This document shows positions 3,368 through 23,970 of a DNA stretch of 25,836 nucleotides, piece by piece. The first letter of the stretch is position 1; the number at the start of each line of letters is the position of its first letter. The DNA is taken from IMG/VR virus record IMGVR_UViG_3300036885_000028, positions 1-25,836 of that record, one strand, 5' to 3'. A program made the position numbers and the translations under genes. The DNA is from a virus. Below the pieces are notes generated by a model. It ran no database searches, had not been told where the DNA came from, and worked only from the letters and a program-made list of their open reading frames with translations.

Positions 3368-4033
3368 TCATCCTCCGAATAGATCGTAGAGTCTGATGAG
3401 CGGGGGGTAGCCCCCGTTCTGGGTCACCATGAGAAGGCGGAAGTAGCGGTAGGCGGCTTCGGCTGCAAGAGTGATCTCCTCCACGCCGCCAGTCGTCGCC
3501 CATGTCGCAGGACTGCGGCTCACTTGGTTGTCCAGTTCATTTTGGGCGATACCATTGGGGGAGCCATAGAGTTTCCAGGCGACCGGGCCATAGTTGTAGG
3601 CTCCACCACTGACCTTTGCCCCGATGCGATACTTCGTGATGGTGCGAGTGGCACCGAAATCTATTTCAAGGTAAGTTCCTTCGGCTCCAATCCAATAGTC
3701 GTATGGGCCACCGTATGAGCGGGACAGTCCGTCGATTCCCTTCACCGGGGGGTAGTCTCCGCTCGCGGCATAGTCAGCGTTCGCTAGGATCGACGGCGAG
3801 AATGGAGAACCCCCGAGAAGAAGTTCATCGCTCCAGCTCGCCACCGTGACAACCCAGCCATTCCACAGCAACATATCTCGTAGGAGCCACGCCGAGCGGG
3901 TGTAGGATTGTTCCCACGCCCCGGCCTTCCCGACGAAGGCGACATCGACAGTCTTCCATGCTCCACCGAGGCCGACCTGGATCTTGGCCGGTGCCTCGTA
4001 CGCTCCTCCCAGACCTTTCCACAGTCCACTCAT
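3368..4033 (-). CDS. Tail fibre protein with discoidin-like domain (221 aa)
   Basis: The ATG at 4033 overlaps the upstream stop (ATGA). The N-terminus (MSGLWKGLGGAYEAPAKIQVG, about residues 1-35) resembles short Gly/Trp repeats of phage fibre shafts. Residues about 60-221 look like an F5/8 type C (discoidin) jelly roll, with strand motifs TYLEIDFGATRTITKYRI, VAWKLYGS and AAYRYFRLLM and a C-terminal IRLYDLFGG. These domains usually bind sugars, so host-surface binding is likely. It is the last tail gene before the lysis cassette. Confidence 0.6.
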   Translation of the reverse strand: MSGLWKGLGGAYEAPAKIQVGLGGAWKTVDVAFVGKAGAWEQSYTRSAWLLRDMLLWNGWVVTVASWSDELLLGGSPFSPSILANADYAASGDYPPVKGIDGLSRSYGGPYDYWIGAEGTYLEIDFGATRTITKYRIGAKVSGGAYNYGPVAWKLYGSPNGIAQNELDNQVSRSPATWATTGGVEEITLAAEAAYRYFRLLMVTQNGGYPPLIRLYDLFGG

Positions 4034-4380
4034 GGGACGTACTTCCACCACGTGTCACCGTCGGACGGAGTGCCGCTCGCGTCGTCGGTGCTGATGGTCA
4101 CCTTGAGTCCGCCGTTGATGACGACCTTGCTGTAGGTCTTGGTCGTGTCCCCATAGACGATCTTGAGGTCGTACGTCCCGGGGAGAATGGTGAACGAGAA
4201 CTCGCCTTCGCTGTCCGTCTTGACAGGATTTGTCTTGGACGTAACACTGTCGTCTTCGTAGAGGTCGGCAGGAGTCGTGGTCCCCGTGAGATACACCGTC
4301 ACGGTCGCGCCGATCTTGATGGCCCCGTTCGTGTCCTGTACGACATCTTGATACTTGAACTTGAGGACGGTCGTGGTCAT
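4030..4380 (-). CDS. Small beta-sandwich tail-fibre accessory protein (116 aa)
   Basis: The ATG at 4380 follows GGGGGAG. The product is an all-beta protein with an Ig-like or transthyretin-like segment (KTDSEGEFSFTILPGTYDLKI, from residue about 53), the pattern of peptidase regulatory-like and prealbumin-like folds. The N-terminus reads KIGATVTVYLTGTTTPADLY. Such small beta modules occur in phage tail fibres and baseplates as joints or binding units. Its stop overlaps the next gene by 4 nt. The role is inferred from fold pattern and position. Confidence 0.55.
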   Translation of the reverse strand: MTTTVLKFKYQDVVQDTNGAIKIGATVTVYLTGTTTPADLYEDDSVTSKTNPVKTDSEGEFSFTILPGTYDLKIVYGDTTKTYSKVVINGGLKVTISTDDASGTPSDGDTWWKYVP

Positions 4381-7247: not shown

Positions 7248-8038
7248 TCGGTGTTGCCTACAAAGGGGAGCCCCGCCGACATGAATCCTGCTCCGGGGAG
7301 GGTATTCTGGCAAGCCGGGATAGCCCCATCAGACCAGCAGAAGGTGGTTTCGGCTGGCCATGCGTCATGATTCCATTGGAGGAAGAATGGCCCCGGAGTC
7401 TCAGCATGGAGGATGAACGGCAGCCACGAGTTGCGGACCCATGCCTGAGAGAGCATGTCCATCGAGATGTTGCTCTTGATGCCCTTGCGAATCATAGTCC
7501 GACCGAGGAAGACTCCGTTCTGGCTGACCGAATTGGTCACCACCGTATTCCTTGCCACAATGGGAGGGGCGAACCCGACGAAGAAGCCCCGTTCGAAGAC
7601 GAGTGCCTTGCCAACAACCATCACGCCGATGAACGGCTTGGTTGAACTGTCCCCGGCTTCCACCAGGACTCGGAAATACCGCTTGATGACGGCAGTGAAC
7701 CTGAAGAAGTAGGGGCGGGACGCCGAGAGCGTGAAGACTCCCAGGCTGGTCCAGGAAGAATTGTCCGGCGAGTGCTGGAGTTCGATGGTGCCGTTGTGTT
7801 TCCACAGGTCTTGCGCGTAGATGGCGAAGTAGTCGAACTCTACCGGATTGCCGAAGTCCGCCTTGAGCCATGCCCCAGTCGCGCTGGACGGCTCCCAGAA
7901 CGTCGCAGGATTCCAATCATACGCATTCTCTTTCGGGTACAAGGCTTCGTCCCCCGACGACGTAATGGTGGCAGCCAGGAAGAGATTCTCATACCCGATT
8001 AGCGGTTTGAGCGGATCGCCAGGAGGAGATATGATCAT
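7244..8038 (-). CDS. Distal tail-like protein with discoidin-like domain (264 aa)
   Basis: The ATG at 8038 overlaps the tape measure stop (ATGA). Residues about 15-140 look like an F5/8C jelly roll (YDWNPATFWEPSSATGAWLK, FGNPVEFDYFAIYAQD, IKRYFRVLVE). Residues 140-264 are a beta-rich domain (RNTVVTNSVSQNGVFLGRT, WLPFILHAETPGPFFLQW) of the sort found in distal tail and tail-tip ring proteins. Its place between the tape measure and the tail tip is the usual slot of the distal tail protein. The carbohydrate-binding role of the first domain is inferred. Confidence 0.6.
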   Translation of the reverse strand: MIISPPGDPLKPLIGYENLFLAATITSSGDEALYPKENAYDWNPATFWEPSSATGAWLKADFGNPVEFDYFAIYAQDLWKHNGTIELQHSPDNSSWTSLGVFTLSASRPYFFRFTAVIKRYFRVLVEAGDSSTKPFIGVMVVGKALVFERGFFVGFAPPIVARNTVVTNSVSQNGVFLGRTMIRKGIKSNISMDMLSQAWVRNSWLPFILHAETPGPFFLQWNHDAWPAETTFCWSDGAIPACQNTLPGAGFMSAGLPFVGNTE

Positions 8039-10428
8039 GCGGTGGCCAACCTCGTTCCGTCTTGGAGCTGCTGATTGATGAGAGCCATGAGCTTTCGAAC
8101 ACCAGAGGAGTCCATGATAACATCGTTGGGGACAACGACGTTGATGGTGGGAGCCTGGGATGCCAGGGAGGATGATGTCTGCGGGTCAGTCGAGGGGAGC
8201 GCGGACATCCCTCCGCCCCCAGAGACAGAGCCTCCCCCGCCGAAGCTGGTTCCTGCGATGGTAGCGATCTGCACCGCTCCTGCGACTGCGACTGCCGCTG
8301 CCATGGCTGCCCCGACCCAAGGAGGGCCAGGGGTGTCCTTGTACGCTTTGACCACGGCGGCAGCGGTGTCGCAGATCGCCTGAGCCAGAGCGGCAGCCTT
8401 CCCAATCTCGAACATCTCACGGCTCTTCGTGTTCATTAGTGAAGCCATACTCCCCATCATAGACCCGAATAGCCCCGCCCGCTGGCTGAACGTCATCTTT
8501 TCCCACTCCAACTGCTTCTGGGCTTGAGTCTTTTCGATGTTCGCCAGCTTCACCTCGTGGTCTTGCTTCAACTGCTCCATGATGGCGTTCTGCTCTTCTT
8601 GTGCCGTCCGCTCCTTGGCGAACTTCTCCTTGAGGATGGCTTTGGACTTTTCGTACTTGGTATTCTCCGCATCAGTGAGGGCATTCAGGCTGCCCTTGTG
8701 GGCTTCCAACCAGACGTCCAAGTCGTTCTTGTCCTCCTGCGTGACTCCGAGTCGGATCTCTTCCAACTTGGCCGCGTGCTTGCGCGCAAAGTCTTCCTGG
8801 ATGGCATTCTGGTCAGCTTGATTCTTGGCTTGAGCATCCAGGTATTCTGAGTCAGAGACGGTGCCTGCCTTGTGGGCAGCATCCAGGTCCATGGTGATCT
8901 TTTGGTAGTGCTTCTTCGTATCAGCTTCCATCAGAGCGTAGTGCTCGTTTTCCACAAGCACCCGCTGATCGAGCCGTGCCTTGTGCTGCACCGACCATGC
9001 CTTCTCGATCTCAGCCTCCACGTCTAGCTCACCGGAGCCTCCTGCTCCTGGCTTCCCTTTGTTGGCGTCATCCTCAGCCTTCTTTTTCCGCTTGTCCTCG
9101 AACGCCTTGATGCGAGCCTCGATGACCCCCATCTGGGCCACGAACTCGGAACTCCAGGTCGTGCTGGTGAGAGCCTTCTGGACCCCTTCAGCCTTCTCGC
9201 GCAAGGAGTCCATGGTGGCATTGAGCTTCTCATCGAGGGGGTCGCCCTTGCGAGCAGCGAGCGCCATCGCATTGACCGACTCCTTCACCAGGAGAAGAGC
9301 TTCCTTCTTGGCATCACGCTCGATTTTCGCAGAGTTGATGCGGGCTTGATCACCGCTTTGCACGGCGATGACGAGTTGACTTTCGGCATGGTTCAACTCA
9401 GCATCGGCAGCGATCAGCTCCTTCGAGTAAGAAATGACAGCCCCGACGATAGCAACCTTCTTCGACAGGATGCTGGCGACCTTCTCCGCCGCTGCCTCCA
9501 GCAATCCCAACTCCAGGGAGAGGATACGGACAACGATCACAATTCCTTGGAAGGCATTGAGAACCGCTTTGATCACCGGGATCAGCGCCTGAATGGCGGG
9601 GCCAGCGATGCTGGAGATGCCACCGGAGTCGACGATGAAGTCCCGCAGGCTCTCCGCCACGGCTGCCAAGGGGGTCGCCAACTCCACCGCGATGCGGTTC
9701 CCTAGTCCTTCCAGGATATGGTGCAGATCACGGAACGCTTCCACCGAGGTACGGACACGCTCCGCGTCCACCGCGTTCACCGTCAGCCCAAACTTCTTGG
9801 CCTCTTCCGTGGCAGCCCGGATCCCCTCGCTGCCCTTCTCGAACATCGGAGCCAGGGCCATGCCCCCACGCCCGAACAGCTCCATCGTGACCTTGGTCTT
9901 CTCTGACTGTGAGCCGAGGTGGCTGATAGCGTCAGCGATGCGCCCGAACGCTTCGTCCGGCTTCAGGTCGCGGAGATCACGCGCATTGAGGCCCAGCTTA
10001 TAGAACGCCCCCTGAGCCTCGAAGATCTTCCCAGATGCATTCTCGATGGCACGCTCAAGACGCGTCACAGAGGAAACGATTGACTCCAGGCTGACTCCAA
10101 CAGCTTCCCCCGCTTCGCGCAGACCATAGAGGCTCTCAGCGGAAACCCCCAGTCGTGTGGACATCCGGTCCATCTGCAGGATGGCTTCCATGCTGCCCTG
10201 CACGAAGTTCTTGAATGCTTCAATGCTGAGGGTCACGCCGAGTGCCGCTGCCAGTTCGAGGACCGCTGCCTTCGCGTTCCCAACGGATGCCTGCACCCCA
10301 TTCAACGTGCTCTGGATGGCCGTGATGGACTGCTTCGTGTCAGCTTGGGCGGCATCCAGACTCGCCTTCAAGCCCGTGACGTCGGCGGTGAGCCTGAGGA
10401 CTAGTTGTTCGAGATCAGAATCACCCAC
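8035..10428 (-). CDS. Tape measure protein
   Basis: It starts at GTG 10428 after GGAAGG. The 797-aa protein is by far the longest of the tail genes. It has an N-terminal helical region (LRLTADVTGLKASLDAAQAD), a TP901-type tape measure core (FKNFVQGSMEAILQMDRMS, MELFGRGGMALAPMFEKG), and long Lys/Glu/Ala coiled coils (about 440-660). The end is Ala/Gly-rich with hydrophobic stretches (WVGAAMAAAVAVAGAVQIAT) followed by a GGGG linker, all typical of tape measures. It sets tail length and passes DNA at injection. It directly follows the tail chaperones, the standard siphophage order. Confidence 0.9.
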   Translation of the reverse strand: MGDSDLEQLVLRLTADVTGLKASLDAAQADTKQSITAIQSTLNGVQASVGNAKAAVLELAAALGVTLSIEAFKNFVQGSMEAILQMDRMSTRLGVSAESLYGLREAGEAVGVSLESIVSSVTRLERAIENASGKIFEAQGAFYKLGLNARDLRDLKPDEAFGRIADAISHLGSQSEKTKVTMELFGRGGMALAPMFEKGSEGIRAATEEAKKFGLTVNAVDAERVRTSVEAFRDLHHILEGLGNRIAVELATPLAAVAESLRDFIVDSGGISSIAGPAIQALIPVIKAVLNAFQGIVIVVRILSLELGLLEAAAEKVASILSKKVAIVGAVISYSKELIAADAELNHAESQLVIAVQSGDQARINSAKIERDAKKEALLLVKESVNAMALAARKGDPLDEKLNATMDSLREKAEGVQKALTSTTWSSEFVAQMGVIEARIKAFEDKRKKKAEDDANKGKPGAGGSGELDVEAEIEKAWSVQHKARLDQRVLVENEHYALMEADTKKHYQKITMDLDAAHKAGTVSDSEYLDAQAKNQADQNAIQEDFARKHAAKLEEIRLGVTQEDKNDLDVWLEAHKGSLNALTDAENTKYEKSKAILKEKFAKERTAQEEQNAIMEQLKQDHEVKLANIEKTQAQKQLEWEKMTFSQRAGLFGSMMGSMASLMNTKSREMFEIGKAAALAQAICDTAAAVVKAYKDTPGPPWVGAAMAAAVAVAGAVQIATIAGTSFGGGGSVSGGGGMSALPSTDPQTSSSLASQAPTINVVVPNDVIMDSSGVRKLMALINQQLQDGTRLATA

Positions 10429-14628: not shown

Positions 14629-15861
14629 CTAGGACGCCGTTCCCTTGAGGATCTTGATGGCCTCCTGGTTCCGCACCTGCCCGCCAGTCCGCTTCGTGGT
14701 GTAGAAGAGGACGTAGGGTTTCGAGGTGTAGGGGTCGCGGAGGACGCGGATGCCGATGCGGTCGACGATCTGGTAGGCTTCCTGCCAGTCAGCGAACGCC
14801 AGACAGAGGGCACCGCTGCCGATGTCCGGCATGTCGGCGAACTCTTCGTAGGGATAGCCCATGATGCGATCGGGCTGGCCGAGTTGCAGACTGGGCTCCC
14901 ACAGATAGCGACCGTAGTTGTCCTTGAGAGTGCTGAGGTAGCCAACGGTCGCACGATTGCACACGAAGGTAGCCTTCATGCGGTACTGCTTCTTCAGCTT
15001 GGCCACGAGGCGCTTCATGCTGCCGAAGTCCATGTAGTACGTCGCGACCGCGCCGTCCACCTGTTCGACATAGCCTTGCTCGGTATTGATGGTCGCCGAG
15101 TGAGGATAGGTCAGGAATCCGCGGGGCTGATTGTTGCCGTCCCCACTGACGAAGGCGGTGTTCTCGATGCGCGCGAGCTTCTCGGCCACCTTCTTGGCCA
15201 GCCAAGCCTCCACGTCCACCGAGCTGTCGTCGAGCATCTTCTGCGAAGCTGCGGGCATCGCGTAGAGCTCGAACACCGGATTCCGGTATTTCCCCCACTT
15301 GGGATTGGCCGAACCGGAGCGAGCGCCGGTCTCACCGACCCAGCCGCCAGCCGCTTCATCCTGGTCGATCAGACCTTCCAGGGCGTCGGAGCTGATGGAC
15401 TGGACTTCGCACAGAGGGCGCATGGGACTGGTCTCCCAGATGCGCTCGACCACGCGGCCGGACATGTCCGCGGTGACGGTGTATCCACCGTCGCTGTCGG
15501 AAACGACCGCCATGGACTTCTTCTCCCAGGAGAACTCCTGCTTGTTCCCCTGGCTGCCGTCGCCCTTGCGGAGGAACTTGTTATAGGCTGCCTTGACCTC
15601 GACTTCATCCTCGGGCGTGTCGCCCTTGGTTCCGCCGACGTTGCGGGCGAGCCGGTCGATGGCCGCGTTGAGGCGTTCCATCTCCTTCTTCTGGTCCTGG
15701 AGCTTGGTGATGTCGTCGAAGATCTTGGTCATCTTGGTCTGGATCTCGCCGACCCCGAGCCCCTTAACAGCCAGGGCGATCTTCTCGTCGGTGGCCTTGC
15801 GGTGCTCGTTGACCGTGCTGGCCAGCGTGTCGATGAGGGTTTTGACTTCCGTGAGTTCCAT
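14629..15861 (-). CDS. Major capsid protein (HK97 fold)
   Basis: The ATG at 15861 has AAGGAG about 9 nt upstream. Residues 1-75 form a charged coiled coil (IKLxxxI-type helix, ITKLQDQKKEMERLNAAIDR), the usual scaffolding delta domain removed by the prohead protease. From about 115 the HK97 capsid fold follows: GGYTVTADMSGRVVERIWET (125-144), AMPAASQKMLDDSSVDVEAW, NTAFVSGDGNNQPRGFL, and RYLWEPSLQLGQPDRIMGYP near the P-domain. It ends VRNQEAIKILK. The 410-aa length fits the phage_cap family. It lies immediately downstream of the protease gene. Confidence 0.95.
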   Translation of the reverse strand: MELTEVKTLIDTLASTVNEHRKATDEKIALAVKGLGVGEIQTKMTKIFDDITKLQDQKKEMERLNAAIDRLARNVGGTKGDTPEDEVEVKAAYNKFLRKGDGSQGNKQEFSWEKKSMAVVSDSDGGYTVTADMSGRVVERIWETSPMRPLCEVQSISSDALEGLIDQDEAAGGWVGETGARSGSANPKWGKYRNPVFELYAMPAASQKMLDDSSVDVEAWLAKKVAEKLARIENTAFVSGDGNNQPRGFLTYPHSATINTEQGYVEQVDGAVATYYMDFGSMKRLVAKLKKQYRMKATFVCNRATVGYLSTLKDNYGRYLWEPSLQLGQPDRIMGYPYEEFADMPDIGSGALCLAFADWQEAYQIVDRIGIRVLRDPYTSKPYVLFYTTKRTGGQVRNQEAIKILKGTAS

Positions 15862-15865
15862 GATG

Positions 15866-16564
15866 TCATGCTCCTTTCAGGAGTGTGTTGGCGTTGATGA
15901 GAGCTTCGGAAAGCTCCTTGAGGTCCTTGGCAGCCTTCTCTTCAGCGTCCCGCTGAGTGAGAAGTCCGTCGCGTAGCTTGGCGATGAAGCCCTTCGCCTC
16001 GCTATCAGAAAAGCCCCCTGCATCCCGCAGGATCTCTTCCGCCTCGCGGATCGTGATGATTTCTTTGTCTTGAAGCGCAGACTTGACACTGAGAACCAAT
16101 GCCTTCGCGTTCATCGGGTATGGCACGGGGCTGATTTCGCGCAGATCCACCGCCGTGAGCCGCCTCGCAGTCTTCTTGTCAGACTGTTCATACTTGTGCT
16201 CCTTGGTGACGAACCCGATGCTGAGCCCCTTCGGGCCATTGCCCTTGAGCATACGGTAGGTCTGTTCGGCCTTGGGAATACCCTGGTCCACCCAGATCTT
16301 TCCTGTGGCCCTGAGCCCTTTCTCGTCGGTAGTGACGTGCTCCCAATCCCCCACGGGCTCGTTGGGGTCATGGTTGAAGAACATGTGAGGCACCGTGCCC
16401 GCTTTCTTGTGCTCCTTGAGAGTTCCCTCGAAGCACTTCGGGTCCAGGATGTCCCCACCCTTGTCCAGATTGTCGAAAGCGCCTCCATAACCGACGACCG
16501 ACCCCTTTGTCCCGTCGTCGAGCTTGAGCTCCAGCATTGGCACTATGATGCGCTTGAGTTCCAT
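15866..16564 (-). CDS. Prohead protease (HK97 family, U35)
   Basis: The start is ATG 16564 (MELKRIIVPM), which has AGGAG 8 nt upstream; an ATG two codons earlier is too close to that site. The 232-aa protein has the prohead protease pattern: YGGAFDNLDKGGDIL (26-40), FFNHDPNEPVGDW with His65 (62-74), KGLSIGFVT with Ser115 (112-120) and LREISPVPYPMN (141-152). His65 and Ser115 are the likely catalytic pair. The final Glu/Lys/Ala helix (about 170-225) is typical. It is directly upstream of the major capsid gene, whose delta domain it should remove. Confidence 0.9.
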   Translation of the reverse strand: MELKRIIVPMLELKLDDGTKGSVVGYGGAFDNLDKGGDILDPKCFEGTLKEHKKAGTVPHMFFNHDPNEPVGDWEHVTTDEKGLRATGKIWVDQGIPKAEQTYRMLKGNGPKGLSIGFVTKEHKYEQSDKKTARRLTAVDLREISPVPYPMNAKALVLSVKSALQDKEIITIREAEEILRDAGGFSDSEAKGFIAKLRDGLLTQRDAEEKAAKDLKELSEALINANTLLKGA

Positions 16565-16607
16565 GTTCATTGCTCCTGTAGGGCGAAGAAGGAGGCGAAG
16601 TCCATGG

Positions 16608-17927
16608 CTAGGGTGCGTTCACTAGGGCTGCGGATTCCTCGTAGACGATCCTGACCCGCACCGTGCCAGCCGTGGCATCAGTATTGCCAAGGGCGGCCCC
16701 GGTCGTCTCGCAGATGCACACGTCCAGGGTCAGCGGAGCGGCCAGTGGCGTCACCGTCCCACCGAGGAAGCCGTTGGTGATCTTGCTGTTTTTCACCAAG
16801 TCAGCCGCGAGGCCGTAGCTTGATGGTGTCGAACCATTCAGCCCAAGGCCGACCTTGACCGACGTGCCGCCAGCCGTGATGGTGCTTTGGATGTTGACCG
16901 CCGACGAGAGGATGAGCGCACCTGCGGGAATGGTCTGCGTCAGTGTCTTGTATTTCGCGGCGGCAGCGAAACTCACCGTTTCCTCGATGACTTTTACCTG
17001 CAAGCCTTCGGTGAGAGCCACGCCGAAGGACATGGCGCTGGCGGCGGCGGCGGCACCGGCGGTGGGGTGGAAGGCGCCAGCGGTGCTAATCTCTGCTGAA
17101 CCAATCAACGCCCCGTCAAAGTAACTCGGGCTCGTCGTCCTGATCCGCCCCGCCCCGATCCCGCCCGCGACATAGAGCTGCGCCGCCGTCGGGGTCGTCG
17201 CGTCGGTCGTGCCGGGGATGAAGACTTCGGTGACGGAGGAGTTGCCAAGGATAACTTGGTTGGACTTGGTAGCGGTTGCCCCTGCGCCAAGCGAAGTGGA
17301 GTTTGCGTACGCCCCTACTCTTGCTTGGTATCCCAAAGCAGTCGCCCCCGTCCCGCTAGCCCATGCTCCCGCACCAATCGAAGTGGAATGATTTTCATTG
17401 GCTCTGGCGTCATCGCCAACGGCAGTGCAGTCAGTACCACCCGCCAACGATACCGTTCCTAGCTGCACACACCTGTCGCCGAGATTTCCGCCACCACCTT
17501 CTCCACGCCAGAGTTTTATCGTATTTACCAACAATGAAGTTCCATCGGTCGTGAGCGTGCTGTAGTCCGTCAGCGTCGAAGCGCCCGACGCGACAGGGAT
17601 TCTGGTCGCGGTGAGAGCGCCGGTGATGCCGCCGGAAGGGGTGGCCCACGACAGGATGCCGTTTCCGGCCACGTCCGTCAGGGCTGTGCCCGCACCACCG
17701 ACTGCAAGCGGAAGGGTGTAGGTGACGGATGCGCTCTGCGTGCCCGCCTGGAAGATGGTGTAGAAGGCGTTGTTCCCGCCGCTCCACCACTTGACGAGGC
17801 CCGCCGTGTTCGCCGTCCCGGCAGGATTGTCGCGGCCGACGGCCACGCCTCCTGGCATGGATGTCGGCTGCTCCGCCGCGAAGGCCGTAGCAAGGAGCGC
17901 GAGGAGAAGGATGAGGATGCGGTGCAT
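16608..17927 (-). CDS. Secreted-type fibre protein with YadA-like beta-roll
   Basis: The ATG at 17927 has AAAGGA. Residues 1-17 (MHRILILLLALLATAFA) form a clear signal peptide with an Ala-x-Ala cut site. Residues 165-236 have YadA-like head repeats, with TAVGDDARANENHSTSIGAG, GATALGYQARVGAYANSTSLG and NQVILGNSS as left-handed beta-roll rungs. Around these are Gly/Thr/Ser-rich shaft regions (ILSWATPSGGITGALTATRI). The end is beta-rich. It looks like a trimeric fibre. It is encoded between head genes and could be a head fibre, but the signal peptide is unusual for a virion protein and is listed as a finding. Confidence 0.65.
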   Translation of the reverse strand: MHRILILLLALLATAFAAEQPTSMPGGVAVGRDNPAGTANTAGLVKWWSGGNNAFYTIFQAGTQSASVTYTLPLAVGGAGTALTDVAGNGILSWATPSGGITGALTATRIPVASGASTLTDYSTLTTDGTSLLVNTIKLWRGEGGGGNLGDRCVQLGTVSLAGGTDCTAVGDDARANENHSTSIGAGAWASGTGATALGYQARVGAYANSTSLGAGATATKSNQVILGNSSVTEVFIPGTTDATTPTAAQLYVAGGIGAGRIRTTSPSYFDGALIGSAEISTAGAFHPTAGAAAAASAMSFGVALTEGLQVKVIEETVSFAAAAKYKTLTQTIPAGALILSSAVNIQSTITAGGTSVKVGLGLNGSTPSSYGLAADLVKNSKITNGFLGGTVTPLAAPLTLDVCICETTGAALGNTDATAGTVRVRIVYEESAALVNAP

Positions 17928-17937
17928 GGTGTTTCCT

Positions 17938-18447
17938 TTACGGGGTCTGGCTGATGCGCTGACCGGAAGCCGTCCAGCCGGTGGTGGCGGGGGTCGCGAC
18001 GAGCTGAAGATGGGTGCCGTCGTTGACGCAGGTGATGGTCACGTCCACGTCGCCGTAGGTGACCTCACCGAAGACGGACCAATCGACCTCGGTCGCGCCG
18101 CCGTCGGTGAAGCCGATGACGAGCATGGTCCGCGTGTTCGTGCCCTTCTTGAGCGTGAGCTTCCACAGGGCGGAGCGTATCGCGCTGGTGAGCACGCTGT
18201 CGAGCACGTTCGCGGAGACGGCTAGGACGGTCGGCGCGATCATGATGCTTGGGTTCTGTGCGGGGGTGAGCTTGCTGTCCGCGCCAAGAGTGGCGACGCC
18301 GGAGGCGGCACCCTTTTGAGCGAGCGGGATGCTCGGGCTGTCCAGCCCTGCGCTCGCCAGCGCGCCAATGTCCTCCTTCGTGTCGTAGAAGAGAAGACGC
18401 GTGCGGAGGTTCAGGGCTTCGATGTAGACGTCGGATGAGCGGGGCAT
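17938..18447 (-). CDS. Fibre/spike-associated virion protein (169 aa)
   Basis: The ATG at 18447 shares a base with the upstream stop (TAATG). The N-terminal 60 residues (IALNLRTRLLFYDTKEDIG-type helix, then PLAQKGAASGVATLGADSKL) contain the GVATLGADSKLTPAQ motif common in phage fibres. The rest is beta-rich with VIGFTDGGATEVDWSVFGEV and VDVTITCVNDGTHLQLVATP, and ends in a short polar tail. It directly precedes the YadA-like fibre gene in the operon, so it may anchor that fibre. The function is inferred. Confidence 0.5.
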   Translation of the reverse strand: MPRSSDVYIEALNLRTRLLFYDTKEDIGALASAGLDSPSIPLAQKGAASGVATLGADSKLTPAQNPSIMIAPTVLAVSANVLDSVLTSAIRSALWKLTLKKGTNTRTMLVIGFTDGGATEVDWSVFGEVTYGDVDVTITCVNDGTHLQLVATPATTGWTASGQRISQTP

Positions 18448-19262
18448 TAGGGCATCTCCTCTAGGGATGGGATAGAAGCAGACGCGTCATTGAACACCAC
18501 GACGCATCGGCAGTTGATGGTTTCTTCGGGAGGGCCGTCAGGGTCCCCAGGATACTGGAGTTCCGCGCTCCCTACTGTAAAGGGTTCATCCATGGGCTGC
18601 TCTTGCAGGTCAGCGTCCGCATGATCGTCCCGTGTGCGTTGGTCGCCAGTCGCGATCCATTGCTTGGTCAGCGGAATGCCCAACTCCTTGGCCGTCTCGA
18701 TGGACGCGTGCTGACTGGCGGTATGGGTTTCCGTGCGCGCGATCACCTGAGCCCTCGTAGGACCGATTTCATTGCAGTCATTCTCGATCTCGTCGGCCGT
18801 CTCGTCCACAGACCAGCCTTCCTTTTCGCCATCTGCAATGATGTCCTTGATGCGCCCCTTGGTCGTGTCTCCCACTTGATCGACCTTTTCGGCCGACCAC
18901 TTGTCCACGAACGCTTGCATCCGGGCGTCAAACGCTGCCTGACCAGCGGGCTGTCTGGCCTTCGCCTTGATCTCCAGCTTGGCGGTCGCGGACTTCTGCC
19001 CGAAGAGCTTCTTGGCACGGTCACCGAACTCCTGGAGAACGCTGGCGTAGTGCGCGCGGAAGATGCCGACCATGCGTTGCTTGTGATCATAGATCAGACC
19101 AGGCAGCCCGTAGCCATCAGCTCTCCTGGCCTTCGCCTCTTGCCCCACACGCTGGAACTCAGTGGTCATCTTCACCCGAAGCGCTCGCTCCGCTGCCTTC
19201 CGCATACGGTCCTGGACCGCATGCTCGCGACGCTTGGCTTTCGTGGTGGGGAGGCGGAGCAT
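18447..19262 (-). CDS. MuF-like head morphogenesis protein (SPP1 gp7 family)
   Basis: The stop shares a base with the next ATG (TAATG). The start is not sharply defined: ATG 19262 lies one base after the upstream stop; 19274 and 19325 are alternatives, none with a clear Shine-Dalgarno. The protein has a basic N-terminus and a long helical middle. From about residue 160 it shows the SPP1 gp7 / phage Mu F pattern: ARTETHTASQHASIETAKEL, KQWIATGDQRTRDDHADADL, and the final PPEETINCRCVVVF with paired cysteines. Such proteins act in head assembly or are injected. It lies downstream of the portal, as usual. Confidence 0.85.
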   Translation of the reverse strand: MLRLPTTKAKRREHAVQDRMRKAAERALRVKMTTEFQRVGQEAKARRADGYGLPGLIYDHKQRMVGIFRAHYASVLQEFGDRAKKLFGQKSATAKLEIKAKARQPAGQAAFDARMQAFVDKWSAEKVDQVGDTTKGRIKDIIADGEKEGWSVDETADEIENDCNEIGPTRAQVIARTETHTASQHASIETAKELGIPLTKQWIATGDQRTRDDHADADLQEQPMDEPFTVGSAELQYPGDPDGPPEETINCRCVVVFNDASASIPSLEEMP

Positions 19263-19263
19263 G

Positions 19264-20127
19264 TCAGTTGCCATACGTCTTGGAAAAGTGTAAGCTGGCC
19301 ATCTCGTGGTGTTTGCCAGCTTCATTATGCAGTTCGATTAATGGGCCATGTGCAGCGTTGTTGGGATCAAGGGCATTAACAGCACGAAAATGAGCTTGAG
19401 CTGCGTCCCCATGCGCCTGGGCTAAGCCATGCAAGTATTGAAAAGTGTGTGGGATATTTTGAGCTCGCTTCGATGCACTGACCGCAGCAGCTGAGACTCG
19501 GCTCAAATGCTTACCATTGAACTTCTCGGTCACCTCATGCGACAACCTGGAGTACTGTGTGCCCGCCTCTATTGTATTCGGCTTGGCACTGCCACCTTCT
19601 CCTGATGCGAACCGCCCACGTTCGTCGTGGTTCGGGTTGAACTTCTTCTCCAGAGCCTCCACCTTCTCCACGCACGACTTCAGCTCCGAAACGGCACCAT
19701 CGGCCTTCTTGGCAGATTTTGCCGCGACCTCGTGAGCAAAAGCCGCTGCTCGATGAGCGCCTGCCGCATCAAGATGCAACGATGCGGCTTCCTTGGAAGG
19801 AGCAAAAGCGGTTGACTTTTCTCCGTTTGATTCGGCGGCTCCAAGATGCTCTTTGGCCGCTTCCTCGTGAGCTTTGGCTGCGTCGGTGTGCGCGGACGCG
19901 GTATCCCACTCGTCCGCATTATGAGTCGCGAGATTTGCCACTCGGCTTTTCTCGTCCGCTTTGTTGGAGTGATCCTGAGCTCCGGTGGGGTTTTGCACCG
20001 TCCAGGCATCTGCGCGCTCTCCGAGGGTGTTCCAAGAGGCTTTCTTGGCACTCTTGCTGATCTCCCTGGCGTTGGAACTCTGGCTATGGGCAAAGCGTCC
20101 GTGATCATCGTGGTTGTCGTTGCTCAT
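19264..20127 (-). CDS. Double-unit GRFASG-leader protein with Ala/His-rich helices (287 aa)
   Basis: The ATG at 20127 has AAGGA upstream. The protein contains two leader cores: NHDDHGRFAHSQ (residues 5-16) and NPNHDERGRFASGEGG (about 164-179). The second is preceded by SELKSCVEKVEALEKKF, the same helix that starts the single-unit relatives at 22295-22585 and 20173-20556. After each leader comes an Ala/His-rich helical body (HTDAAKAHEEAAKEHLGAAE; LHGLAQAHGDAAQAHFRAV). It therefore looks like two units fused in frame. The second body (19264-19560) has lower GC than its surroundings. Role unknown; position among head genes suggests a virion or assembly role. Confidence 0.7.
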   Translation of the reverse strand: MSNDNHDDHGRFAHSQSSNAREISKSAKKASWNTLGERADAWTVQNPTGAQDHSNKADEKSRVANLATHNADEWDTASAHTDAAKAHEEAAKEHLGAAESNGEKSTAFAPSKEAASLHLDAAGAHRAAAFAHEVAAKSAKKADGAVSELKSCVEKVEALEKKFNPNHDERGRFASGEGGSAKPNTIEAGTQYSRLSHEVTEKFNGKHLSRVSAAAVSASKRAQNIPHTFQYLHGLAQAHGDAAQAHFRAVNALDPNNAAHGPLIELHNEAGKHHEMASLHFSKTYGN

Positions 20128-20165
20128 GGCATGTTCCTTAGTAGAGGGCCTTGATGCCCGTGGCG
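20125..20165. repeat. 41-bp near-exact repeat (other copy 20554-20594)
   Basis: 20125-20165 and 20554-20594 match at 39 of 41 positions, including an exact 30-bp core (20136-20165 with 20565-20594). Each copy covers the last codons of a spike-base-like reading frame (ATGIKALY), its stop, a Shine-Dalgarno and the ATG of a leader-family gene. They record a duplication of the unit [end of spike base gene + start of leader gene]. Confidence 0.85.
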
Positions 20166-20176
20166 ATCTTGCTCAT
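20138..20176 (-). pseudogene. Remnant of a duplicated spike base gene (12 codons)
   Basis: An open frame ATG(20176) to TAA(20138) encodes MSKIATGIKALY. Its last eight residues equal the C-terminus of the spike base protein encoded at 20567-20848. Its start overlaps the 20173 stop as ATGA. The sequence around the ATG (20174-20194) also matches the junction between portal end and spike base start (18 of 21 bases, 20846-20866). It is best read as an internally deleted copy of the spike base gene left by tandem duplication. A functional peptide is unlikely. Confidence 0.7.
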
Positions 20177-20556
20177 GGGTTATCCTTTGCCGTACCTGCG
20201 CGTGCATCATGGTAGGCAGCTTTAGAATCATGGTTCATAGCCGCAAACTCGTGACTTTGAGCCTGTGCGAGTTTCGTTGCACTAGGGTTTATGGTGTATT
20301 CCTTTGTGAGTCGCGAAGATGCGGTACGATGTGCTTGAGCAGCAATCCGTTGTAATATAGCTGCCTTTTCATTCTCTCCGCGTGTGCCAATAATAATCGC
20401 TTTGTCGCGCGCCATATCTGCCTTGGACGAAGCCATATAAGCGGCCGAACTAGCTTCTCCACCGGACGCGAAGCGACCGTTCTCGTCGTGGTTCTCGTTC
20501 ATCTTGAGCTCCAGCTTCTCCAGCTTGTCCGCAGCTGCTTTGATGCCGTTGTCCAT
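20173..20556 (-). CDS. GRFASG-leader small protein with helical body (127 aa)
   Basis: The ATG at 20556 follows AAGGGAC. Residues 1-33 form the family leader: a charged helix (KAAADKLEKLELKM) followed by NENHDENGRFASGGE. The remainder is an Ala/His/Ser-rich helical body (IAAQAHRTASSRL, KLAQAQSHEFAAMNHDSKAA) of lower GC than neighbours. The leader DNA is nearly identical to that of the 22295-22585 gene (a shared exact 35-mer). It lies between the spike base gene and its remnant copy. Function unknown; possibly an internal or accessory head protein. Confidence 0.65.
   Translation of the reverse strand: MDNGIKAAADKLEKLELKMNENHDENGRFASGGEASSAAYMASSKADMARDKAIIIGTRGENEKAAILQRIAAQAHRTASSRLTKEYTINPSATKLAQAQSHEFAAMNHDSKAAYHDARAGTAKDNP
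20481..20515. repeat. 35-bp exact repeat in leader-family genes (other copy 22510-22544)
   Basis: 20481-20515 and 22510-22544 are identical over 35 bp, and after two mismatches the match continues for about 12 bp more. Both lie in the sequence encoding the conserved leader (LELKMNENHDE). The bodies downstream are unrelated at DNA level. This points to recent copying or recombination limited to the leader. Confidence 0.85.
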
Positions 20557-20566
20557 GGTATGTCCC

Positions 20567-20848
20567 TTAGTAGAGGGCCTTGATGCCCGTGGCGGTCGTG
20601 TTGGTGGACATGACCTTGCGGACGCGCCAGCGGTGCTCGCCGACGCTGATGGGCAGAACGGCAGGGGCGGAGTCGTCCACGAGCTGGACGTTGATGTTCC
20701 CCGCGACGGTGACGTCGATGGCGTTGGTCACCTCCGCCAGCTCATCGGTGTCCGAAGGCACGATGGCAGTGGCACGACGATACGGGCCGGAAGGGGCGAC
20801 ACCATAGGTGCCGAACTTGTCGACTGCGACGATGGGGGCAGCGGGCAT
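20567..20848 (-). CDS. Head spike base-like protein (RCAP_Rcc01079 type)
   Basis: The ATG at 20848 lies just after the portal stop. The 93-aa beta-rich product has the pattern PSDTDELAEVTNAIDVTVAG (31-50), a middle strand INVQLVDDSAPAVLPISVGE, and the characteristic end VRKVMSTNTTATGIKALY. This resembles the spike base proteins first named in the Rhodobacter capsulatus gene transfer agent, which sit on capsid vertices and carry head spikes or fibres. The nearby fibre-like genes (16608-18447) could be the spike. Recognition rests on pattern memory. Confidence 0.65.
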   Translation of the reverse strand: MPAAPIVAVDKFGTYGVAPSGPYRRATAIVPSDTDELAEVTNAIDVTVAGNINVQLVDDSAPAVLPISVGEHRWRVRKVMSTNTTATGIKALY

Positions 20849-20851
20849 AGG

Positions 20852-22291
20852 CTATCCTTTTCCGTAAGTGAGGTTGTGAAGGGCTTTCTTGACTTCCACA
20901 GCGAGTGCGATCTCTGACTTGGTAGGCGGAGCTTCGTCTTTGCCAGGGGGTTTCTCCTGACCAGGAGGGACGGGCTTCGCTGGCGGATTCTGCGCCACGT
21001 CCAGCGCGACTTGCTGTTTCTCGACCGACATGCTCAGAGGTACGAGCGTGGACGGGATCCATACTTCGTCTGCGGCCGGGTCGTCGAGCGGCTCCATGTC
21101 CAGGGCCGTCCGCTTCTCATTGATCGTCATGTGCTGGGCACCGGCAATCTGCGTCCACTTCTCCGTACGACGTGGGGCCAGGGCTGCGATGCGATCCATA
21201 TCGGGCACAAGACGCAACTCGGGGTCGAAAGCGGGCACAAGCCACTCGTTGAGGTTGTCCAGCAGCCTGTCCAGCAGCGGGAGCACCGTGTCTTCATACA
21301 AAGCGAGGCGAGCTTGTTCGTAGTTCGCATAAGTGTTGTCGCCAGGGATGCCGAGGAGCTGGCTTGGGACACCGTATGCCAGGGCGATGATGCGAGCAGC
21401 GTCGCGCTGGCCTTCCAACCAGTCCAGGTCCACGGCGCTCATTGACATGTCGTTCCACTTGAGCCCACCGTCCAGGATGAACGGTCGGCGCGCGTTCTTC
21501 GGGCCAGTCATGCGCTCGTCGATGTCGCGCTCAAGCTGCTCGCGCTGCTCGCGCGTGAGGATCGCCCCTACATTGCCAGCGGGCTCGTAGGTGAATCCCC
21601 CTGGCGGACGACCGCTGTTCTGCAAGACCGACATATTCCACTCGGCCGCGCTATTATGCTGGTCCACCTGCATCGCGGCTGCCCGCATGATGGGCATTCC
21701 GTAGAGGTTGTTCAAGGGATTGAACGTGCGGAAGTGCAGCACTGAGCTGCGTCCGTCCACGAAGTTGACCTTGAAGTCCACTTGCCTACCGTCGCGCTTG
21801 AAACGATACGTCGCTGGCGTGCCGTCTGGCGCGGGAATGATTTCAATGCAGTTCGGCGGCATCTGCCAGAGTTCCACTGGCGGGCGACCAGTATTCTTTT
21901 CCCCGCTGTCCCCGATCAGGTAAGCATTACCCCAGAGGCAATACCATGAGATGTACGCCTCCCAGAAGTCGAATCCGTTGGTGACAGGATTGGGCTTGTG
22001 CATGATCTGCTTGAGCGGATGATGCCTGTCGACCACCTCTTCGTCGAAGCCATCCCCGTCGCTGTCCAGATGCATGATCTTCAACGGAACATGCGCCACC
22101 GCTTTCGCCACCTTCTCGATCGCTGCCTTGACGATGGCGCACTTGGCGAAGCCCTCCTCGGAGTACGACTTGAAGTCGTCCGGCATACGCTGAGGCTTGC
22201 CGACCTTCCAACCGACGTCGATGGCGCCGACCGGATTGGACTTGAACTCCCGATTGGGGAAGAAGCGGTCGATGAGGGAGCGGAGGGACAT
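20852..22291 (-). CDS. Portal protein (HK97 family)
   Basis: The ATG at 22291 lies 3 nt after the upstream stop. The 479-aa protein shows the phage portal pattern: ALQRI-type helices, then HHPLKQIMHKPNPVTNGFDF (89-108), WYCLWGNAYLIGDSG, RSSVLHFRTFNPLNNLYGMP (about 181-200), SAAEWNMSVLQNSGRPPGGF, and AYGVPSQLLGIPGDNTYANY (about 289-308) with the WLEGQRDAARIIALAYG helix before it. The Pro/Lys-rich end (about 430-460) is a flexible tail. Portals form the 12-fold channel for DNA at one capsid vertex. It follows terminase, separated by a small leader-family gene. Confidence 0.93.
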   Translation of the reverse strand: MSLRSLIDRFFPNREFKSNPVGAIDVGWKVGKPQRMPDDFKSYSEEGFAKCAIVKAAIEKVAKAVAHVPLKIMHLDSDGDGFDEEVVDRHHPLKQIMHKPNPVTNGFDFWEAYISWYCLWGNAYLIGDSGEKNTGRPPVELWQMPPNCIEIIPAPDGTPATYRFKRDGRQVDFKVNFVDGRSSVLHFRTFNPLNNLYGMPIMRAAAMQVDQHNSAAEWNMSVLQNSGRPPGGFTYEPAGNVGAILTREQREQLERDIDERMTGPKNARRPFILDGGLKWNDMSMSAVDLDWLEGQRDAARIIALAYGVPSQLLGIPGDNTYANYEQARLALYEDTVLPLLDRLLDNLNEWLVPAFDPELRLVPDMDRIAALAPRRTEKWTQIAGAQHMTINEKRTALDMEPLDDPAADEVWIPSTLVPLSMSVEKQQVALDVAQNPPAKPVPPGQEKPPGKDEAPPTKSEIALAVEVKKALHNLTYGKG

Positions 22292-22294
22292 AGG

Positions 22295-22585
22295 TCAATG
22301 TCCGCTTGCAAGCTGGAAGTGTTCTACAGCTTTTCCACGATGATAGAATGCTGCATCTGAGTTTCCCATCTTGGCATGAGCTTTTGCTGCTGCTCTATGG
22401 GCCCATGAGGCTGCGGCATGGTCAGTTCGTTTGTTTGTTTTACTAGCCTGTTCTGAAAGTTTTTCTGCTTTAGCTGATAAACTTGATCCTCCTGCGCTAA
22501 ACCGACCTCTCTCGTCGTGGTTCTCGTTCATCTTGAGCTCCAGCGCCTCCAGCTTGTCTATGGCCGACTTGAGTTCATCGCTCAT
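22295..22585 (-). CDS. GRFSAGG-leader small protein with helical body (96 aa)
   Basis: The ATG at 22585 overlaps the terminase stop (ATGA). The leader (residues 1-33) is SDELKSAIDKLEALELKM followed by NENHDERGRFSAGG, nearly identical at DNA level to the 20173-20556 gene. The body is Ala/His/Lys-rich and helical (DHAAASWAHRAAAKAHAKMG, DAAFYHRGKAVEHF). The body DNA (about 22310-22500) is around 45% GC on three-line counts, below the portal and terminase 3' parts on either side. It is wedged between terminase and portal. The function is unknown. Confidence 0.65.
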   Translation of the reverse strand: MSDELKSAIDKLEALELKMNENHDERGRFSAGGSSLSAKAEKLSEQASKTNKRTDHAAASWAHRAAAKAHAKMGNSDAAFYHRGKAVEHFQLASGH

Positions 22586-23970
22586 GTGATCCTCGGGGTT
22601 GCAGTTTGGAGGAGGACACCCGCAGCACCATCGGCCGCGTCGATCTGGTCGTCGTGGTAGCCGGTCGGGGTGTCAACCTGGTCCTCATCGACGAACGCTT
22701 CGGCCTCATCCAGGAAGGCCTCATTCCACGCGCCGCGCACAAGCTTGACGTTCCCGACCTCGGCTGCGGCAGAGAGCGGACCGGAGCGTGTCCACTTGCT
22801 GCCGGTCGGCTTGACCCAATGCGGAGCATACTCGGCAAGGGCTGTGCTCAGGTGCTGCTTTTCCACTTGGCCTGCTTGCGCGGGGTCTTCCTCGAGCCAG
22901 AGCTCGGTCGTATCCCCATCCTGGGAAGCGGTGTTCTGTAACATCGCTTGCACACCGAGCGGACGCATGCGATCGCGGCGCATGTCCACGATGTAGAGCA
23001 GCCCTGTTCTTGAGCGGTAGACCCGAGCACCGGCGGTATGATCCGGATCGGGGTTCGCGTCCGAGGGAATAGTCGAGGCACGATCCCAATAGCGTACCAT
23101 CCGACCACCGTCGCGCGGGTAATCGGCAACGATCTCGAACCACAAACGTTTGAAGCGCATGCCACCCTCTGGTCGCACGCGCCAGTTGCCACCCAGCAGA
23201 ATCTCGCGCTCGTAGAGCGGGAGCGCCATGAGATTTGCGCGATATGCTGGGTCACCAATGTTCAATGCAGGATTGTCTTCAAGCTTGGCAGAAATAAATG
23301 TGAACGAGCGCGGCATGTTTGGTTGCCCGGTCTCATCCTTCTGCGGAAGTTCTTCTTTGGAATCAGCCCAAAGAATCTTATTTCCTTGCCGTACAAACCA
23401 TCTAACGGCACCAGACCGTTCCTTGATCGGGTAACCATCAGCACCTATCCACCACTCGATCAACTTTTCTACCCATGAACCGGGTTCTGGGTTACATGTG
23501 GCACGAACATATGGGCGCACGCCACAAAGTGACCTATTGCGTGATAAAAGATACCAGAATTGAGACTCAGAGAAATGTGTAAGTTCATCCCAAAGGATAA
23601 GCGGCAATGCACTGCCTTGCCATGAGAACTTGTCAGCTTCATATTGCAAGTGGCTAAAGCGTACGCGTGCTCCTGAGGGGAACTCAAACGAGAGCCCAGT
23701 CTCATTTACTTTTGCACCAAGCGGTCGATATAACTCATTAGCCACATCGAACAAACCACCAAGTTGCTTGATCTGAGGGTATGTCCGCCGAAAGACAATA
23801 GCTGAGAAATTAGGAATGTCTACATAGTGCAATGGTTCAAGCAAAAGTGCAAAGCTCTTTCCGCCTCCGGCCGAACCTCCATAAACTGCAATATCACAGT
23901 CACAAGCTGCAAACTGTGCTTGTGGCCCCTTCTGTGGGGCAATCTGCTCTAACGTTGCGGAAGGGCTCAC
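22582..23970 (-). CDS. Terminase large subunit
   Basis: It starts at GTG 23970, overlapping the upstream stop as GTGA. The 462-aa protein has the ATPase motifs YGGSAGGGKSF (Walker A, 31-39) and LPLILWDEL (Walker B, 122-130), with CNPEPGSW (159-166) at the coupling region. The nuclease part shows YWDRAS (294-299), EED (360-362) and HDDQIDAADG (439-448) for metal-binding acids. It packages DNA into the prohead and cuts it. GC content drops from about two-thirds in the nuclease half to about half in the ATPase half, with a change near 23230, at residue about 247. Confidence 0.95.
   Translation of the reverse strand: MSPSATLEQIAPQKGPQAQFAACDCDIAVYGGSAGGGKSFALLLEPLHYVDIPNFSAIVFRRTYPQIKQLGGLFDVANELYRPLGAKVNETGLSFEFPSGARVRFSHLQYEADKFSWQGSALPLILWDELTHFSESQFWYLLSRNRSLCGVRPYVRATCNPEPGSWVEKLIEWWIGADGYPIKERSGAVRWFVRQGNKILWADSKEELPQKDETGQPNMPRSFTFISAKLEDNPALNIGDPAYRANLMALPLYEREILLGGNWRVRPEGGMRFKRLWFEIVADYPRDGGRMVRYWDRASTIPSDANPDPDHTAGARVYRSRTGLLYIVDMRRDRMRPLGVQAMLQNTASQDGDTTELWLEEDPAQAGQVEKQHLSTALAEYAPHWVKPTGSKWTRSGPLSAAAEVGNVKLVRGAWNEAFLDEAEAFVDEDQVDTPTGYHDDQIDAADGAAGVLLQTATPRIT

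Follow-up and report, generated by a model that had tools for sequence, protein, structure and literature searches.

To our knowledge, effectors that are delivered from the phage head are known mostly from T4, from P1 and from fusions to MuF proteins, and they have usually been found singly. The internal proteins of T4 have only their N-terminal leader in common, which directs packaging, whereas the rest consists of unrelated anti-restriction proteins that are injected with the DNA (PMC12373910, PMC3012670). Within the IPIII leader, the initial stretch is responsible for targeting and the final stretch for processing (PMC9026906). The P1 proteins DarA and Hdf are head-internal, injected anti-restriction proteins, and the prohead protease cuts the N-terminus of DarA (PMC12810830). 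Polyvalent proteins unite multiple effector domains of unrelated kinds in a single polypeptide, are encoded near head genes, can be fused to MuF or portal proteins and have been proposed to be injected (PMC5512222). Here, we analyse a short protein leader, NxNHDxxGRFASG, that an uncultivated tailed phage (IMG/VR record IMGVR_UViG_3300036885_000028, positions 1 to 25,836; this 25.8 kb fragment is called the window) has four times in its head operon. We consider it fairly probable that the leader is a head-cargo tag for interchangeable bodies that would be packed in the head and delivered into the bacterium, because one leader precedes unrelated bodies, bodies are swapped between relatives, the leader is linked to and co-oriented with head genes, it is fused to head proteins as carriers, and bodies elsewhere resemble effectors.

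Three open reading frames (ORFs), units A, B and C, lie on the minus strand where the initial annotation had placed them and comprise four leader units in all, each with an NHDxxGRF-type motif (Table 1). The leader is common to the three genes, and the exact 35-mer that the annotation reported for the leader DNA of A and B is real, as codon-shuffled B gave a maximum of 13 nt. Furthermore, the leaders of A, B and C2 align as a family of DNA repeats (D1). A charged helix had been described ahead of the motif; this holds for A, B and C2, whereas the first leader of C lacks it. The predicted layout of a unit is a helix, a conserved unstructured peptide and a body. In the AlphaFold2 model of unit A (predicted local distance difference test score, pLDDT, of 69), a helix spans residues 2–21, the motif is disordered with low confidence at residues 30–35, and the body forms a helical hairpin with a block pLDDT of 72–86 over its better part. 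The model of unit C (pLDDT 53) was too poor for a fold search.

The four bodies of the window show no mutual homology in a sequence search. They share a composition rich in Ala and His (27–35% compared to 10–17% in core genes) and are helical as far as structure prediction goes, both as initially described. The bodies had also been called AT-richer, which is clear for A and B, weak for C2 and not significant for C1: GC content at third codon positions (GC3) is 0.25 in body A compared to 0.73 in core genes (0 of 4000 comparison windows are equally low) and 0.40 in body B (1% of windows), with 0.52 in C2 (8%) and 0.57 in C1 (10%), so that only A and B reach significance. When 50,697 phage records were searched by sequence, neither unit A nor unit C had a full-length relative. 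A sequence search of the Protein Data Bank returned nothing useful, and PADLOC gave no match.

The exchange of bodies can be observed directly. We found one close relative of the window, L115 (IMG/VR 3300037225_000031), whose portal DNA is 95.6% identical. There, the end of the terminase gene adjoins the start of the portal gene without unit A in between, and a single unit gene ends directly ahead of MuF, at the position that unit C has in the window. This gene contains body B (DNA 95% identical to that of the window) where the window has the unrelated C2; its leader is similar to that of the window, its downstream flank is almost identical, and the flanks are conserved on both sides. Therefore, the same body occurs behind different leaders, with the breakpoint at the leader. 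We conclude that bodies swap between close relatives with breakpoints at the leader. The bodies are thus exchangeable, as had been suggested, both by replacement (B at the place of C2) and by presence or absence of a cassette (unit A). For T4-type internal proteins, too, close relatives differ by swaps of variable genes at a fixed locus. New bodies would arrive through recombination in or beside the leader, which would make the site beside portal and MuF a cargo locus. Just ahead of unit C lies a mini-ORF that copies the 3' end of the phrog_12296 gene 0.4 kb downstream of the original and retains its ribosome-binding context; we take this copy for a scar that a tandem duplication left behind.

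To look at the leader in other viruses, we scanned viral contigs with a leader-only DNA pattern for NHDxxGRFA, using the same codons in permuted order as a control. The pattern matched 82 stretches and the control 14. Among the 76 matches in open frames, 71 have an Asn two residues before NHD and 60 have an aromatic residue or Met three residues before it, neither of which the pattern requires (0 of 8 for both in the control). Because copies that were found blindly keep residues outside the search pattern, the leader is not a chance resemblance. The logo of 137 non-redundant copies reads [VLI]-x-K-[YF]-N-P-N-H-D-E-x-G-R-F-A-S-G-x-G-G-G over about 20 residues; the regular expression imposed Asn at -3, H, [DG], G, [RK] and F, whereas K at -5, [YF] at -4, the hydrophobic residue at -7, P at -2 and the SG-rich tail were not imposed. 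Conservation is confined to about -7 to +14 with little beyond, and the leader is thus a short linear element and not a domain. Its synonymous codons vary freely between phages; therefore, the constraint acts on the protein, and an element at the DNA level was rejected. Copies from the same contig are more alike than copies from different contigs (similarity at positions -8 to -4 of 2.60 compared to 0.55; 0 of 300 permutations), even where the bodies are unrelated. Such a dialect would agree with a partner that differs from phage to phage. Another junction dialect, K[YW]xxxQPRxPAGSxxGGQFTSG, was found in loci L007, L035, L017, L071, L092 and L018; this QPRD/HPRxPAGSxxGGQF variant occurs in the same gene clusters as the NHD form, even in the same polypeptides, and gave weak matches or none in named phages. 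Gut phages have a motif of the type HYGVKGMKWG, which we looked for in the leader loci and did not find.

Among the 50,697 named phage records, the leader consensus had convincing matches in MW202897 and in the Nitrososphaera provirus FR725450 only. The unannotated record MT837250 (E 3) is not counted here, and matches in Rhizobium/Agrobacterium and Vibrio phages (E 3–8) were dropped. With two convincing copies in named records, the leader appears to belong mainly to uncultivated phages, which would explain its obscurity. A strict pattern returned five loci in 257 Gb of prokaryotic genomes, so an even spread over non-phage proteins was not seen; one of the five is a phage portal gene, and two have no in-frame motif ORF.

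The leader is linked to head genes. In 40 of 50 contigs that were picked by an in-frame motif irrespective of its neighbours, we detected a portal, MuF, terminase or S78 match. The nearest head gene is co-oriented with the motif in 39 of these 40 and at most 5 kb away in 37 (median distance 667 b). In contigs of at least 20 kb, the fraction of motifs within 5 kb of a head gene is 0.78, compared to 0.32 under circular shifts (p=2e-4). A search with the leader alone, as the initial annotation had proposed, hence recovered a portable leader that is tied to phage head genes and stands in front of unrelated bodies. The 168 bodies fall into 98 clusters with 67 singletons, and homology between bodies of the same polypeptide was found for one of 66 pairs. 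A frame contains up to five leader copies, and in 73 of 127 cases no more than 60 residues separate the frame start from the first motif. Bodies match several ADP-ribosyltransferase (ART) families in Pfam and PHROG, including the Alt-like phrog_802 and ART-PolyVal, as well as zeta toxin, topoisomerase IB, PI3/4-kinase, 2H phosphoesterase, pyridine nucleotide oxidoreductase, glucosaminidase, LPD3, NUDIX and SprT, and weakly RelA/SpoT. Judging by these matches, many bodies elsewhere are effector-type enzymes.

Portals, MuF proteins and prohead proteases were found as carriers ahead of the leader. In MW202897, two leader units are attached to the prohead protease, and the body of the second one is helical and rich in Ala. 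A similar protease fusion occurs in L023 and another in L060, where the protease match is only weak. In L019, an 871-aa ORF beside a lambda-type portal (7382–9994, plus strand) has an NHD leader ahead of a ClpP-type protease domain. In the Nitrososphaera provirus (L111, 3792–5808), the portal has a leader near its C-terminal end, and its gene shares an overlap with a Rel/Spo-like gene; together, the two may be a split portal-leader-alarmone unit. A relative of unit A in L116 (566–1198, plus strand) has a GARHSxxDxxxIxxxHDxI-like stretch twice at its C-terminus; such stretches presumably occur in other phage head proteins as well.

In the window, the units are interspersed with the genes of the head operon on the minus strand (Table 1). 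Between the genes for MuF and the prohead protease, positions 16608–17927 (minus strand) encode a protein of 439 aa whose start resembles a signal peptide and which contains a YadA head repeat (Pfam PF05658); for an adhesin-like protein, this position is odd. A tail-end protein (3368–4051, minus strand) has an F5/8 type C (discoidin-like) domain and is likely a receptor-binding part.

Table 1. Leader units and head genes in the window.
Feature	Position	Strand	Remark
Terminase large subunit	22582-23970	minus	PHROG/Pfam family matches
Unit A	22295-22585	minus	between terminase and portal; one leader
Unit A leader	22487-22585	minus	helix MSDELKSAIDKLEALELKM + NENHDERGRFSAGG
Unit A body	22295-22486	minus	63 aa, Ala/His-rich, predicted helical hairpin, GC3 0.25
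Portal protein	20852-22291	minus	PHROG/Pfam family matches
phrog_12296 protein	20567-20848	minus	small, 93 aa, 'tail fiber' in PHROGs; between portal and putative cargo genes
Unit B	20173-20556	minus	one leader
Unit B leader	20455-20556	minus	MDNGIKAAADKLEKLELKMNENHDENGRFASGGE
Unit B body	20173-20454	minus	
Mini-ORF	20138-20176	minus	MSKIATGIKALY*; 12-codon copy of phrog_12296 gene end, ahead of unit C
Unit C	19264-20127	minus	two leaders; just ahead of MuF
Unit C first leader	20080-20127	minus	MSNDNHDDHGRFAHSQ, without helix
Unit C body 1 (C1)	19711-20079	minus	Ala/His-rich
Unit C second leader	19591-19710	minus	KKADGAVSELKSCVEKVEALEKKFNPNHDERGRFASGEGG
Unit C body 2 (C2)	19264-19590	minus	
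MuF-type head morphogenesis protein	18447-19325	minus	overlaps unit C end
Prohead protease, Peptidase_S78	15866-16570	minus	
HK97-type major capsid protein	14629-15861	minus	N-terminal delta-like region

If the leader is a head-cargo tag, the helix and the NxNHDxxGRFASG(G) stretch would recruit a protein into the prohead interior during assembly, either alone or fused to portal, MuF or prohead protease. These carriers are known from other phages to be inside the prohead. By analogy with T4, docking would fall to the helix, with the NHDxxGRFASG stretch as a junction that is perhaps cut, its glycine-rich end being flexible and probably cleavable so that the body is released. The bodies, effectors or internal proteins that can replace one another, would exit the capsid together with the DNA and become active in the cell that has just been infected. 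We thus infer that the bodies are packaged and injected and that the leader targets them and is cleaved. The leader helix itself resembles the capsid delta region, portal and protease no more in sequence than shuffled controls do. For the four bodies of the window, the likeliest classes are small anti-defence proteins, like T4 IPI–III, or internal core proteins. More tentatively, tailed viruses that differ in portal type, archaeal proviruses included, might share the leader as a general cargo signal; one peptide would then both route and release cargo, and long head polyproteins would reach the cell as several effectors. Several observations weigh against a cargo tag. PHROG and Pfam recognise no effector domain in the bodies of the window, and the fold search with the model of unit A returned generic helical hairpins only, none at E<=0.001. 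The motif ORFs of L093 and L094, two of the prokaryotic loci, have no head genes in the 7–8 kb of DNA analysed, and the motif contigs are fragments in which the full extent of the gene clusters is not visible. The leader dialect could also come from recent duplication. Lastly, a polypeptide that is fused to a portal or protease would have no need of a targeting signal, which speaks for a role as a junction only.

Such a role could take the form of a processing site, at or near which a prohead protease of the S78/S78_2 type cuts to free the bodies while the carrier or the helix does the targeting. We regard this as possible but on the unlikely side. The leader indeed separates carriers from bodies and one body from the next, and some protease genes carry it themselves. 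S78 or S78_2 was found in 26 of the 50 motif contigs (12 and 14, respectively), compared to 2 for ClpP and 0 for S49, counts that may in part mirror how common these proteases are in comparable contigs; at least one motif protein has a ClpP-type protease instead. Moreover, the same enzyme should cut the capsid protein, yet we saw no GRFA-like stretch in the capsid protein or protease of the window, nor such a site among the first 150 residues of the capsid protein of MW202897. A plain flexible linker between domains, which spread as a handy recombination seam and has no recognition role, would agree with the Gly/Ser-rich tail, the disorder predicted between helices and the body-swap breakpoints at the leader. 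However, a nearly invariant N-x-N-H-D-x-x-G-R-F goes far beyond the needs of a spacer, the leader is close to the N-terminus of many stand-alone proteins, and it is conserved as protein despite its free codon use, which together make a mere linker quite improbable.

It is also conceivable, though we think it unlikely, that the Ala/His-rich units of the window are internal core or scaffold proteins of the head and not injected effectors. Similar Ala/His-rich helical bodies on the prohead proteases of L023 and MW202897 (and on the weakly matching protease-like domain of L060), as well as the helical hairpin predicted for body A, are consistent with a structural role. Presence or absence and full replacement of bodies between phages with about 96% identical portals would, however, be unusual for a core scaffold, and bodies A and B, with their foreign base composition, also argue against it. 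If the leader is indeed a head-cargo tag, effector and anti-defence genes could be read from metagenomic phage genomes regardless of their fold, the loading of proteins into HK97-type heads would become a testable question, and the leader might work as a loading tag for engineered capsids.

When comparing the locus to known systems, we find differences from each of them. MuF polymorphic toxins likewise use a head protein as carrier of swappable C-terminal bodies (PMC5576092); however, units A–C have no MuF domain and MuF is a separate gene in the window, and a term search of the accessible text of PMC5576092 gave no mention of a motif or linker. DarA and Hdf of P1 are likened here by description and not by sequence, and the accessible text of PMC12810830 describes no common portable tag. 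With polyvalent proteins, leader loci elsewhere share LPD3 and ART-PolyVal domains, and several of them encode at least two effector domains per polypeptide, which the window units do not. The accessible description of polyvalent proteins (PMC5512222) includes no leader or junction peptide, and the window units are small and without known enzymatic domains. The closest likeness is to T4: otherwise unrelated proteins share one N-terminal leader, as IPI–IPIII do with their capsid-targeting sequence, variable genes occupy a fixed locus, and Alt-type ADP-ribosyltransferases are among the leader-borne bodies elsewhere. In contrast to T4, the phage of the window has an HK97-type head and an S78 protease, its units match no PHROG or Pfam family of such internal proteins, and the leader is also borne by portals, MuF proteins and proteases and, in large polypeptides, lies inside and between domains. 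A text search of 5.39 million open papers, with most subscription papers outside its scope, found no phage paper that names the motif; the searchable literature gave no description of the leader itself, of its hosts or of its occurrence in polyproteins, portals, MuF proteins and proteases. By analogy, and without detected homology, the leader looks like a functional counterpart of the T4 capsid-targeting sequence, and the principle of a common leader with swappable head cargo is already known from T4.

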